From: Acidobacteriaceae bacterium
Lineage (GTDB): Bacteria > Acidobacteriota > Terriglobia > Terriglobales > Acidobacteriaceae
Direction: 5' to 3'
Assembly: GCA_030039035.1 (NCBI GenBank)
Contig: JASHQQ010000140.1
Coordinates: forward strand, 1 to 64,000
DNA: 64,000 nucleotides
Shown: piece after piece, positions 1,061 to 8,130 of the stretch
Numbering within the stretch: position 1 is the stretch's first letter
Layout of the letters: each line of letters begins with the position of its first letter
Notes under the pieces: generated by a model
Seen by the model: the letters and a program-made list of their open reading frames with translations, nothing else
Told to the model about the DNA's origin: nothing
Database searches by the model: none
Made by a program: the position numbers and the translations under genes

Positions 1061-3595
1061 TTGCCTTTGGCCGACAGTCCCGCGGTTCAACCCGATTTCC
1101 GGAACACCCCCCCACTTCGGATCAATTTGGCCGGTATTCCTGCCGGACCTGCGGTTTCCCTGCGTGAACTCTGGAGAGTAATGATCCGCAGGCGGCGGAT
1201 CTTCGCCGGCATCCTCGGCGGATCGCTGCTGGCCTGCCTTCTCTATTGCCTGATCGCACCCAATCAGTACGAAGCCCGGGCCAAGGTGGCATTGCGAACC
1301 GCGCCTTCCACACAGCTCGGAGGAGAAATCGCGGAGCCGGGAATCTCCACATCGGTTTTCGCTGCGCCCCTGCAGCTTGAAACGCTGGCCAATTTCCTGC
1401 GCAGCGACCAGCTAGCCTGGCGAGTCATTACCGACCAGCAGCTTTACCAGTCGCCGGCCTTCAAGGGGAACTTCGACCGCAAGTTCCCGGGATTTCGCCC
1501 CGAAGCGCCTTCGCCCGATGCGCAGGATTGGCTCCTCGAGCGCTTTCAGCAACGGCTGCGTGTGCAAACGGTGCCGCGCACCCTGGTGATCCAGATACGC
1601 TTTCGCTCGAAAGACCGGGCTGTCTCCGCGGCGGTGGTCAACGCCCTGATCCGGGATTACATGGAACAGGAGAACAGCTCACGGGTGCGTGCCACGGAGC
1701 AGGCGACCGGCTGGCTGGAAAGCCAGTTGAAGGAGTTGAAATCGCGCGTGGAACAGGATCGGCTGCGCCTCGCGTCCTATGAGAGCGACCACGGCATCCT
1801 TGGCGCTCCGGCGACGCTGCCGGACGGGCAGGATGCGGAAGCCAGCCATAACTCCACCTTGCTCGAAATCGACGAACTGGGCCGGCAGCTCGTCGCAGCC
1901 ACGACGGACCGCATTCTGTGCGAGGCCGAATACCACGCCGCAGCGACGGGAAACCCCGAACTTGTCTTCGCCTCAAGCGCCCGCATGCAGGGACAGGGCG
2001 GCAGTTTCGCGACTGCGCTCCTCGAGCATATTCACGCGCGCCACAGCGAGCTTGAGCAGGAGCAGGCGCGGCTCAGCATCGAGCATGGGCCCAATTTTCC
2101 CCGCGTGGTGGAGATTCGCCGGCAGTTGCAGGATCTCGACAGGCAGGAGAAGGCCGAGGACGCCAGGCTCGTGACCCGGTTCCGCAGCGCCTGGCAAACG
2201 GCGCAGGAGCGCGAGGAGATGGTGCGCAAGAGCCTGGACGAGCTGACCAGCGAGGGTTTGAAGCTGAATGAAGCAGCCACCGAATACGCCGTGATGCGCC
2301 AGGAGGCGAACTCGAGCCACGAAGTTTACGTGCGAGTGCTGGAAAAGGTGGAAGAAGCCGGCTTGACCGCCGGGATCCACGCCTCTTCGATCACGGTGGT
2401 GGATTATGCGCGTCCCCCGGCCAAGCCGGTTGCGCCCGATCTGCCGCTGTATCTCGGCATCGTTTCTTTCGTCGGCCTGTGGCTGGCGGTGGGAGTTGTG
2501 TTCATGCTGGAATCGATCCACCCGGCACCGGCCCGGCTCGGCGTGCTGCTGCTGGCGGCGCTGGTGGCCGCTGGTGCGGGGCATGCGCAGCCGCCGACTC
2601 CCAACACGGCCGGGTTGCCGAGCGGCGTCATTCATCCGTCTCCTGAGCCGGCGCCCAGGAACCCCACGAATCCGAAGACCGCGCCTGAATTGTGGGACCA
2701 GCCCGAATCGGCAACGAATCCGTCCACAGCGCCGGCAGGATTATCCCTCGAGCCGATGCCGGCGCCGATCGGGCCGGGCGATTCGCTGGATATCAGCGAA
2801 TTTCACACGCCGGAATTTCACTCCCAGGTGCGAGTGCAACCCGACGGAACCGTGACGCTGCCACTGATCCAGACGGTGAAAGTAAGCGGCATGGATGAGG
2901 AGGGCGCGGCCAAGTCGATCGCCGCGGCGTTGGTGGCCCAGGGGATGCTGCTGCATCCGCAGGTCTCGGTGCTGGTGACTGCCTATGCGGGACAGGATGT
3001 GAGCGTCCTCGGCGAAGTGGCGCGAGCGGGCGTCTATCCCTACACGATTCACCACCGTCTGCTCGATCTCATTTCTGCAGCGCAGGGGCTGGCGCCGTCT
3101 GCGGGCAGACTGGTGAATATCTATCATCGCGACGATCCCAGGACGCCGCACCCGGTGGTTCTCGACCCGAGCGGGACCGACATGGCGGCGGAACACAATC
3201 CCGAGCTGATGCCGGGCGACACGGTGCAAGTCAGCCGCGCAGGCCTGGTCTACGTCATCGGCGACGTGGTGCGGCCCGGAGGGTTCCCGGTCGATCCGGC
3301 GCAAGGGCTCACGGTGGTGCAGGCGCTATCGCTGGCGTGGGGACCGTCGATCAATGCGGCCGCCGGCAAAGCAATCCTCATCCGTGAACAGAAGGGAGGG
3401 CGAACCCTGACGACGCTCAATCTCTATCACATGCTGCATGGGCAGGAGCCGGACCAGCCGATCCGCGATCGCGATATTCTCTTCGTGCCTCCGTCGACGG
3501 CGAAGAACTTGCTGAACAAGAGTGTGGATGCGCTGATCCAGTCGTCGATCGGAGTGTCGATCTACTCGGGGCTGGTGTACTCGCAGAGGTATTAA
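1061..3595 (+). CDS. Fused polysaccharide chain-length determinant (Wzz/GNVR, PCP) and polysaccharide export protein (Wza/OPX with SLBB domains)
   Basis: N-terminal SLRELWRVMIRRRRIFAGILGG + TM, coiled-coil, second TM (LYLGIVSFVGLWLAVGVVFMLESI); then signal-peptide-like LGVLLLAALVAAGAGHAQ, then GPGDSLDISEFHTPEFHSQVRVQPDGTVTLPLI (Poly_export) and SLBB-like VSVLGEVARAGVYPY and VYVIGDVVRPGGFPV. TTG start; alternative ATG at 1181. Confidence 0.85.
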   Translation: MPLADSPAVQPDFRNTPPLRINLAGIPAGPAVSLRELWRVMIRRRRIFAGILGGSLLACLLYCLIAPNQYEARAKVALRTAPSTQLGGEIAEPGISTSVFAAPLQLETLANFLRSDQLAWRVITDQQLYQSPAFKGNFDRKFPGFRPEAPSPDAQDWLLERFQQRLRVQTVPRTLVIQIRFRSKDRAVSAAVVNALIRDYMEQENSSRVRATEQATGWLESQLKELKSRVEQDRLRLASYESDHGILGAPATLPDGQDAEASHNSTLLEIDELGRQLVAATTDRILCEAEYHAAATGNPELVFASSARMQGQGGSFATALLEHIHARHSELEQEQARLSIEHGPNFPRVVEIRRQLQDLDRQEKAEDARLVTRFRSAWQTAQEREEMVRKSLDELTSEGLKLNEAATEYAVMRQEANSSHEVYVRVLEKVEEAGLTAGIHASSITVVDYARPPAKPVAPDLPLYLGIVSFVGLWLAVGVVFMLESIHPAPARLGVLLLAALVAAGAGHAQPPTPNTAGLPSGVIHPSPEPAPRNPTNPKTAPELWDQPESATNPSTAPAGLSLEPMPAPIGPGDSLDISEFHTPEFHSQVRVQPDGTVTLPLIQTVKVSGMDEEGAAKSIAAALVAQGMLLHPQVSVLVTAYAGQDVSVLGEVARAGVYPYTIHHRLLDLISAAQGLAPSAGRLVNIYHRDDPRTPHPVVLDPSGTDMAAEHNPELMPGDTVQVSRAGLVYVIGDVVRPGGFPVDPAQGLTVVQALSLAWGPSINAAAGKAILIREQKGGRTLTTLNLYHMLHGQEPDQPIRDRDILFVPPSTAKNLLNKSVDALIQSSIGVSIYSGLVYSQRY

Positions 3596-3599
3596 GCTC

Positions 3600-4820
3600 T
3601 TGCGCCGTCTCGCCCAATTCCTGCTGGTGATATTCACCTTCGCCGTTCCCTGGGAGCTTGCCCTCGATCTGGGCGAGCCGTGGGGGCCCGTCGCGCGCAT
3701 TGCAGGAATCCTGTTGCTTCTGGCGGCGATTCCGGCGGTGTTCCAGGCGGCGACGATGCGAACTCCCGGAGCCATGCAGTGGCTGGTTCTGGCGCTCTAC
3801 CTGTGGTTCTGCTGCTCCTGTTTCTGGACCATCGATCAGGCGGCATCGCTGGAAAAACTGCGCGCGTACTTTCAGGAGATGATGCTCGTCTGGCTGGTGT
3901 GGGAGTTTGTCGACCATCCACCCGGACTGCGCCGGATCCTGCAGGCCTATGTGGCCGGTTCGTGGGTGCTGGCCGCTCTCACCCTGGCCAGCTTTGCCTC
4001 GCCCGAGGCAATTGCCAACGGCCAGGTGCGCTTCTTTGCCGAAGGTCTCGACCCCAACGATACCGCCCGCTTTCTCGATCTCGCATTTCCGATGGCTGCT
4101 GTACTGGTCGATGGAGAATCGCGCTGGTGGGGCAGGTTCTTGGTGCTGGGGTATTTCCCCCTGGGGCTGCTGGCCGTGTTGCTGACGGCATCGCGGGGAG
4201 GGTTCCTGGCGGCGCTTCTGGCGCTCGCCGGGTCGGCGGTGCTGCTGGCACGCGCCCATCCGCGCCGATGGCTCGCCGGAGCCTTGGCTCTGCCCCTGCT
4301 CGGCGTTGCTATCTGGCAGATCGTCCCCTACGAGACCCTTGAGCGGCTGGCGACGATTTCAGAGCAATTTGGAGGAGGAAACTTCAACGAACGCGCGAAT
4401 ATCTGGGTACAGGGTTGGTATGCCTTCGCTCATGCGCCGATGGCGGGGAGCGGGGCTGGATCCTTCGTCGCCGCAGCGGGTTTGGCGCCCATCGACACAG
4501 CGCACAACACGGCGCTCTCCATCGCGGTAGGCGGCGGGCTCTGCGCGCTGTTTTTGGCTTTGGCCATTCTGGTTGTGGCCATCCGGTCGGTCCTCCAGCT
4601 TCGCGGGCCGCTCCTGCTGGCGATGGGCACGGTATTGCTCGTATGGCTGGTGACGACTTTGACTGCATCGGTCGAGGAGAACCGTTCCACCTGGATTTTG
4701 TTCGCCTCGATTGCCGTGGCTGGAAGGATGGCGGTGAAAGATCCTGAAGCATTGGCCGACTGTTTCGCGCACCCTCCAGCCCGTCACGCCGGCGACGGTG
4801 ACGCTGAGCCGCTCCTGTAG
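3600..4820 (+). CDS. O-antigen ligase/polymerase-like (Wzy/WaaL) membrane protein
   Basis: Multi-TM protein with O-antigen ligase-like pattern (ASRGGFLAALLALAG; ANIWVQGWYAFAHAPMAGSGAGSF); directly downstream of the Wzz-Wza ORF. Confidence 0.75.
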   Translation: MRRLAQFLLVIFTFAVPWELALDLGEPWGPVARIAGILLLLAAIPAVFQAATMRTPGAMQWLVLALYLWFCCSCFWTIDQAASLEKLRAYFQEMMLVWLVWEFVDHPPGLRRILQAYVAGSWVLAALTLASFASPEAIANGQVRFFAEGLDPNDTARFLDLAFPMAAVLVDGESRWWGRFLVLGYFPLGLLAVLLTASRGGFLAALLALAGSAVLLARAHPRRWLAGALALPLLGVAIWQIVPYETLERLATISEQFGGGNFNERANIWVQGWYAFAHAPMAGSGAGSFVAAAGLAPIDTAHNTALSIAVGGGLCALFLALAILVVAIRSVLQLRGPLLLAMGTVLLVWLVTTLTASVEENRSTWILFASIAVAGRMAVKDPEALADCFAHPPARHAGDGDAEPLL

Positions 4821-6990: not shown

Positions 6991-8130
6991 TTATTCGGCT
7001 CGCGCCCATCGCCTTGGCCGGGGATTGCGCGCGAGCAGATCCCGGTAAAGGGCTTCCCATCGATCAAGCACGGAATCGAGGCTGTAACGCTCGACGGTCC
7101 GAAGCCGTGCGCGCTCTCCCATCGCCCGGCGCTCCGCATTGGAGGCATTCGTGAGCGTTCTCATTTTCCCGGCAAGGACCATCGAAGACCCTGCCGGAAC
7201 CAGCCACCCGGTCTGCCCGCCCACAATGACCTCGTTCGTCCCGGGAACGTCCGTAGCGACCGCCGGAACCGCGCAGGCTGAGGCCTCGATCAGCCCCATG
7301 GGCAGGCCTTCCCAGCGGGACGTGAGCAGGAATCCGTCCGCAGCCCGCAACCATGTCCGCACGTCCGGCTCAAAGCCCAGAAAGCGCACGCGAGGCGCGA
7401 TTTCCAGAGCGGCTGAAAGAGCACGCAATTCGCCTTCCAGCGGACCGCTGCCGGCGATGACGAGCCGCGCCGGCTCGCGAACCTGAGCAAATGCGCGAAG
7501 CATCGTGGGATAGTCCTTTACCGGCTCGAGGCGGCCGGCAGCGAACCAGAGAAACTCGTCGGACAGGCCCATCTCGCGCCGGCGTACTGCACGAACTTCC
7601 TCGTCCGGCTTCCACGATTCCGTATCGATCCCGTTGGGAATGACGGCGATTTGTTGGGGCGGGACCATCTTCGCATCGAGATACGCCTGTCGCACAGCCT
7701 CGCCGACCGCTGTGACCCGATCCGGCAGCCGGCGGCTCCAGCGGTAACCGATGCGCCGGCCGATAGTGCCCGTCGATGACGTGTGAATCGTGTCGACAAC
7801 CACGCGCACCGGCGCGGCGAGGCGCGACCAGCGCGCGATCCATGCGGCATGAGGAAGATGAGCATGAAGGACATCGGGACGTTCGCGCCGCAGCCAGCGG
7901 TTCAGCCGGATCCAGCCGCGCGGGTCGGCCAAGCCTTTGCGCATCCCGAGCGCCAGAAATGGAATGCCGGCGGCAACAAGTTCGCCGGCAGCGCTGCCTC
8001 CCGCGCCCGAAAGAGCAATGACGCTCACCCGCCAGCCGCGAGATCGCAGACCGCAAGCGAGCAGAATCGTTTGCCGCTCCGCCCCGCCGATGCGATCGAG
8101 GGTAGGAATAACAAGCGCAACGTGGTTCAC
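6991..8130 (-). CDS. Glycosyltransferase family 4 (GT-B)
   Basis: MNHVALVIPTLDRIGGAERQTILLA...FAAGRLEPVKDYPTMLRAFA...LTSRWEGLPMGLIEASACAVPAVATDVPGTNE. Confidence 0.9.
   Translation of the reverse strand: MNHVALVIPTLDRIGGAERQTILLACGLRSRGWRVSVIALSGAGGSAAGELVAAGIPFLALGMRKGLADPRGWIRLNRWLRRERPDVLHAHLPHAAWIARWSRLAAPVRVVVDTIHTSSTGTIGRRIGYRWSRRLPDRVTAVGEAVRQAYLDAKMVPPQQIAVIPNGIDTESWKPDEEVRAVRRREMGLSDEFLWFAAGRLEPVKDYPTMLRAFAQVREPARLVIAGSGPLEGELRALSAALEIAPRVRFLGFEPDVRTWLRAADGFLLTSRWEGLPMGLIEASACAVPAVATDVPGTNEVIVGGQTGWLVPAGSSMVLAGKMRTLTNASNAERRAMGERARLRTVERYSLDSVLDRWEALYRDLLARNPRPRRWARAE

Follow-up and report, generated by a model that had tools for sequence, protein, structure and literature searches.

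A polysaccharide co-polymerase and an outer-membrane exporter encoded in one conserved reading frame of Acidobacteriaceae, with a predicted signal peptide at the junction

The window is the whole stretch of DNA that we have analysed, 64,000 nt from a contig (JASHQQ010000140.1) of an Acidobacteriaceae genome (assembly GCA_030039035.1). Near its beginning, a frame on the forward strand (1061-3595) is open over 844 codons, with its stop at 3595. The first-pass annotation had described this frame as an uninterrupted ORF joining polysaccharide co-polymerase (PCP, Wzz) and exporter (OPX, Wza) domains, and our analysis confirms it: The first half is a Wzc/Wzz-type co-polymerase, the second half is a Wza-type OPX. 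The features of the locus are the following:

1052-1056, forward: Shine-Dalgarno-like TAAGG, 10 bases 5' of TTG 1067; orthologues have GAGG-type sequences here
1067-3595, forward: PCP-OPX fusion gene, 842 codons plus stop (open frame, 73 distinct orthologues, probable start from the start column)
1154-1432, forward: Wzz domain including TM1 (about 1196-1258); Pfam PF02706, 28.1 bits, cut-off 25.5
2294-2506, forward: GNVR domain and TM2 (TM2 about 2441-2509); Pfam PF13807, 34.4 bits, cut-off 27.7; model helix at residues 461-486
2491-2506, forward: internal Shine-Dalgarno GGGAG (2491-2495) with in-frame ATG (2504-2506), candidate OPX start, enriched over synonymous shuffles
2510-2587, forward: predicted cytoplasmic loop, then the internal signal peptide with its predicted cut between Ala 509 and Gln 510 (Gln 510 at 2588), from the residue counts given below
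2588-2758, forward: N-terminal linker of the predicted mature OPX; QxPTP..GLP.GV is conserved, the rest varies and is predicted to be unstructured (alignment, low pLDDT)
2768-2977, forward: Poly_export domain; Pfam PF02563, 61.8 bits
2993-3403, forward: two SLBB domains; Pfam PF22461 and PF10531
3497-3592, forward: C-terminal helix ending LVYSQR(Y/F) (alignment, low-confidence model helix)
3600-4820, forward: Wzy/O-antigen ligase family protein, conserved neighbour; Pfam PF04932
4798-6222, forward: MurJ/MOP-family flippase with a likely Wzx-like role, conserved neighbour; Pfam PF03023
6219-6983, forward: DUF2334 protein, deacetylase-like; Pfam PF10096
6991-8130, reverse: glycosyltransferase; Pfam PF00534, PF13439
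8127-9263, reverse: glycosyltransferase; Pfam PF13692
9468-10745, forward: glycosyltransferase; Pfam PF13692

Both halves are found in a single frame in 115 of the orthologue loci we have collected (L008-L128), 73 of them distinct. The remaining six loci are at contig ends or assembly joins. The first-pass annotation had placed the start of the gene at TTG 1061. The best-supported start is probably TTG 1067, two codons downstream, because in the alignment of the 73 distinct orthologues its column has the highest frequency of a Shine-Dalgarno sequence plus a start codon among 847 columns (83% of 47 rows). An out-of-frame ATG at 1045 also comes after a GGAGG sequence.

All Pfam matches of the fusion protein are above the curated cut-offs: Wzz at residues 32-124, GNVR at 412-482, Poly_export at 570-639, SLBB_2 at 645-724 and SLBB at 730-781. 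The first part has what is characteristic of a PCP, since PF02706 and PF13807 are both above cut-off and the model shows long helices between TM1 and TM2. It is not a PCP-2a (Wzc with a BY-kinase): TM2 runs on into the signal peptide, and no kinase family of Pfam or NCBIfam matches the fusion protein, so the kinase domain is missing, as the first-pass annotation had said. No BY-kinase match is found on the contig of the window, others are present elsewhere in the genome. The second part belongs to the OPX family, with Poly_export followed by at least one SLBB and a fold match to Wza. As in class 3 OPX proteins, Poly_export and SLBB are its only Pfam domains. In NCBIfam the two halves score best with the EpsE/EpsF and XrtA types (TIGR03028, TIGR03017), far under the curated cut-offs.

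The C-terminal segment LVYSQR(Y/F) is strongly conserved among the fused OPX parts, which are a few residues longer than their unfused relatives. Wza_C (PF18412) has no match in the fusion protein up to an E value of 1. A C-terminal helix of 28 residues, modelled at low confidence, may be a structural counterpart of Wza_C. As its hydrophobic moment is low (0.03-0.13), we do not claim an amphipathic outer-membrane helix. Comparison of the family profile with the PDB gives matches to Wza and Wzc chains (E about 1e-12). The AlphaFold model of the full-length protein has low confidence (mean pLDDT 65, pTM 0.33), so it has been used for fold matches only; the best ones are Wzc and Wza chains, including chains of the Wza-Wzc complex. 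The model of the OPX part has a mean pLDDT of 73, with a folded core mostly at 80-90, and matches Wza with E 5e-20.

The well-assembled carriers we have examined share a common gene order: The fusion is followed by the Wzy/ligase gene, the MurJ-type flippase, the DUF2334 gene, two reversed glycosyltransferases and a forward one. The DUF2334 gene is not found in the cluster of one genome (G002). The cluster is of the Wzx/Wzy type.

A third hydrophobic segment (residues about 493-507) lies directly past TM2 (461-483). The first-pass annotation had called it signal-peptide-like, and the alignment bears this out. Judged by its residues, the junction has all parts of a Sec signal peptide, namely a basic loop, a hydrophobic core and a predicted conserved cleavage site. 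The site is clear in 70 sequences. Position +1 is Gln in all 70, and position -1 is Ala in 54 and Gly in 14, with one Pro (L026) and one Cys (L054). Small residues prevail at -3, and Arg is found most often at -18. The median length of the hydrophobic run ahead of the site is 14 residues. The frame thus has a conserved internal Sec signal peptide with a predicted signal peptidase I site, as would be expected of a polyprotein cut at such a peptide. The Gln at +1 in 70/70, with no Cys, is also different from the lipidation site of class 1 OPX proteins.

In a cleavable Sec signal peptide the core is free to vary, while the flanking residues are fixed. Amino acid differences between random pairs follow this pattern: They amount to 0.73 in the loop and 0.72 in the hydrophobic core; the cleavage site has 0.41 and the following 15 residues 0.29, compared with 0.48 for the PCP body and 0.29 for the OPX core. 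The conservation of -1 and +1 beside a varying core predicts two mature proteins. Stand-alone OPX proteins from the same genome and from sister genera have signal peptides which end in the same way, with A/G/S and then Gln. We have also considered the Q-rule as described in PMC5837995 and set it aside, it concerns Bacteroidetes.

These data are best accounted for by a two-part PCP/OPX precursor which would be cut at its internal signal peptide and would belong to a Wzx/Wzy-type export machine; we give this interpretation, based on sequence comparison, a probability of about 0.7. The ribosome would make PCP and OPX as one chain. The N-terminal part would be a kinase-free Wzc-like PCP, with TM1 and TM2 inserted in the membrane, a periplasmic coiled-coil arm between them and TM2 leading back to the cytoplasm. 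With the short basic loop and the internal Sec signal peptide, translocation would then begin anew and carry the OPX to the periplasm, where signal peptidase I would cut before Gln 510 and leave a free, non-lipidated OPX. This OPX would join the PCP octamer in the way that Wza joins Wzc (PMC12881504). Synthesis as one chain would give both parts in 1:1 amounts and side by side, which fits an 8:8 complex of the Wza-Wzc type. Some details do not agree so well with cleavage into two proteins: Position -3 is Leu, Ile or Met in 19/70 sequences, Pro and Cys are found at -1 in the two cases given above, and if two products are wanted, the loss of a stop which is never regained has no explanation.

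The frame is in fact never interrupted, and this would also be found if the protein were not cut. The third segment would then be an anchor, and the OPX ring would be tethered by a linker of roughly 57 residues, long and predicted to be flexible, reaching covalently towards the outer membrane. The Wza and Wzc partners of the capsule secretion complex of E. coli do form one continuous channel (PMC12881504), which is in keeping with such a tether. On the other hand, a small residue at -1, Gln at +1 and a core of only about 14 residues are more in keeping with a signal peptide that can be cleaved than with an anchor. An uncut or only partly cut fusion, which would link the inner-membrane co-polymerase covalently with the exporter through the periplasm while untethered OPX came from the internal start, is in our view unlikely. 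The first-pass annotation had proposed a single envelope-spanning polypeptide; this is unsupported, as what separates TM2 from the OPX has the look of a Sec signal peptide that can be cleaved.

The codons of TM2 contain a second signal. Among 47 Gly columns, that of Gly478 has the most GGA (71% of the sequences, as against 18% overall), and TTG codes for Leu482 in 47% (14.5% overall). A Shine-Dalgarno sequence of at least 5 bases with a properly spaced start is found in 35/73 sequences, as against 6.7 +/- 2.3 (maximum 13 in 300) when synonymous codons are shuffled within each gene. When the set is thinned to 28 sequences with identities under 66%, the values are 8 observed and 1.8 +/- 1.2 shuffled (maximum 5 in 400). 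Internal initiation is therefore likely in part of the clade, though dispensable overall: 27/73 sequences lack even a four-base Shine-Dalgarno with a start there, the tree requires no fewer than 12 to 14 changes of state, and the link between Shine-Dalgarno and start codon is not significant after correction for the tree. A Shine-Dalgarno-like pause site is a possible alternative. Within the cleaved precursor, in about half of the sequences the internal ribosome-binding site and start would probably provide further OPX with the same signal peptide.

The presence of GGGAG and ATG at 2491-2506 in the window, together with the enrichment in the family, might be taken to mean that there are mainly two translation products, the OPX coming from the internal start in TM2 and the PCP-OPX read-through being secondary. 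This appears improbable, more so than an uncut fusion, as the 27 sequences just mentioned have no usable internal start. Besides, no orthologue has a stop ending the PCP, so every PCP carries an OPX. The first-pass annotation had also supposed that the fusion fixes the stoichiometry of both parts; this would apply to synthesis alone, and the ratio may be looser in those species which have the internal start.

The fusion is well conserved in relatives, as may be seen from the continuous frame in the 73 distinct sequences, which cover three genera and include isolates (L081, L098, L106). The named relatives are Acidobacteriaceae from the Occallatibacter/Terracidiphilus and Acidicapsa groups. In the same genus, 30/35 genomes have a match with E below 1e-250, nearly all full length and with no internal stop. 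Among 250 genomes of Acidobacteriaceae, the full-length fusion is limited to the genera g1, g19 and g60. A profile of the junction (residues 400-662), searched in 297 genomes of Acidobacteriota, gives matches spanning the junction in genus g1 only; the carriers in g19 and g60 have been found by the family scan. Two near-complete genomes of the same genus (G032, G201) lack the fusion, and also the neighbouring Wzy gene, which means that the whole cluster is missing there, not the fusion alone. Outside the phylum the search covered a plasmid collection, in which none of the 324 records that match covers 80% of the protein in one place.

We have looked in the relatives for a stop or frameshift between the domains, which would point to two separate genes, and have found none: At the junction a single apparent break is seen, in L100, and it falls exactly on an NN placed by the assembler (7405-7406). 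That a lost stop or an assembly error joined two genes in this genome is thus ruled out by this check and by the identical frame in the 73 orthologues, isolates included, even though the source genome is fragmented (404 contigs) and 86% complete. Such two-base NN joins give apparent frameshifts in other metagenome genomes, at L104:6780-6781 and L030:1501-1502.

In other genera of Acidobacteriaceae, the nearest OPX genes are about 40-44% identical and lie directly 3' of a PCP gene which includes a kinase region. Sister genera (L134-L141, L206) have the order PCP-kinase and then OPX, adjacent or often overlapping in another frame, and these pairs are likely the precursor state of the fusion. For example, genus g53 (L206) has a homologous unfused cluster: A PCP with a kinase domain (760 aa) is followed after about 50 bases by an OPX frame of 333 aa, whose own signal peptide ends in GFA-QED, and then by a glycosyltransferase with a sugar transferase, Wzy and MurJ. 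After the 'ES' which follows TM2, the fusion goes straight to the signal peptide, while unfused PCPs go on into the kinase. The simplest reading, suggested by a related genus which keeps PCP-kinase and OPX as two genes, is that the fusion probably arose by deletion of the part coding for the kinase, which joined the two frames.

The same genome contains a second PCP-OPX fusion of different families, a frame of 1250 aa in another contig (C207; L162:7587-11339). It carries Wzz and, with a weak match, GNVR, followed by TM2, a basic loop and a segment resembling a signal peptide, which ends in AFA-Q; Poly_export and several SLBB domains come next. The exporter part is KpsD-like, with many SLBB. 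A full-length homologue, 64% identical, is found in G004 (L209:9089-12874), and in G575 the homologue is split by contig ends (L210, L211; 88-90% identical). This fusion is thus present in three species of the genus, with a GT87 protein and a sugar transferase as common neighbours; in the other genomes listed its homologues are separate genes. Two PCP-OPX fusions with a shared plan of TM2, basic loop, signal peptide and A|Q site have thus arisen in one genus. Both this shared plan and the unfused cluster of L206 speak for the two-part precursor.

The component families are known, and we consider the fused arrangement as a variant of the Wza-Wzc kind of exporter. It resembles Wza-Wzc of Escherichia coli (PMC12881504; PDB 9r64, 9r68, 2j58) in the sequence and fold matches of both halves and in its Wzx/Wzy setting. 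The E. coli system has two genes, and its Wzc has a kinase domain and a tyrosine tail, whereas the fusion is one gene with no kinase. Wza is lipidated and has an outer-membrane helix domain at its C-terminus, while the fusion has neither a lipidation Cys nor a Wza_C match. Class 3 OPX (PMC9603273) and D1D2D2 OPX (PMC9601211) are similar in having Poly_export and SLBB with no Wza_C or GfcC match, but they exist as proteins of their own, and often a gene for a beta-barrel partner goes with them; no such gene is found among the annotated near neighbours of the fusion. The PCP and OPX of the EpsE/EpsF and XrtA types are also separate proteins, unlike the fusion. In the open-licence literature we have searched, no PCP-OPX fusion is described; descriptions elsewhere are possible.

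The cytochrome b/c1 precursor FbcH of Bradyrhizobium is a membrane protein followed by an in-frame internal signal peptide and a second protein, which are separated by a peptidase. We use it as a working analogy; the proteins are unrelated, and cleavage in the fusion is only predicted.

PCP and OPX usually come from separate genes, and how their numbers are matched and how the partners find each other is a standing question. A fused precursor which is conserved in a clade, and which one genus has acquired on two independent occasions, suggests that PCP and OPX gain from 1:1 or side-by-side synthesis. The fusion offers a simple system for the study of PCP-OPX pairing and of export by a kinase-free Wzc-like PCP. 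If it is cut as predicted, it would be an uncommon case, in bacteria, of a polyprotein whose processing takes place at an internal signal peptide.
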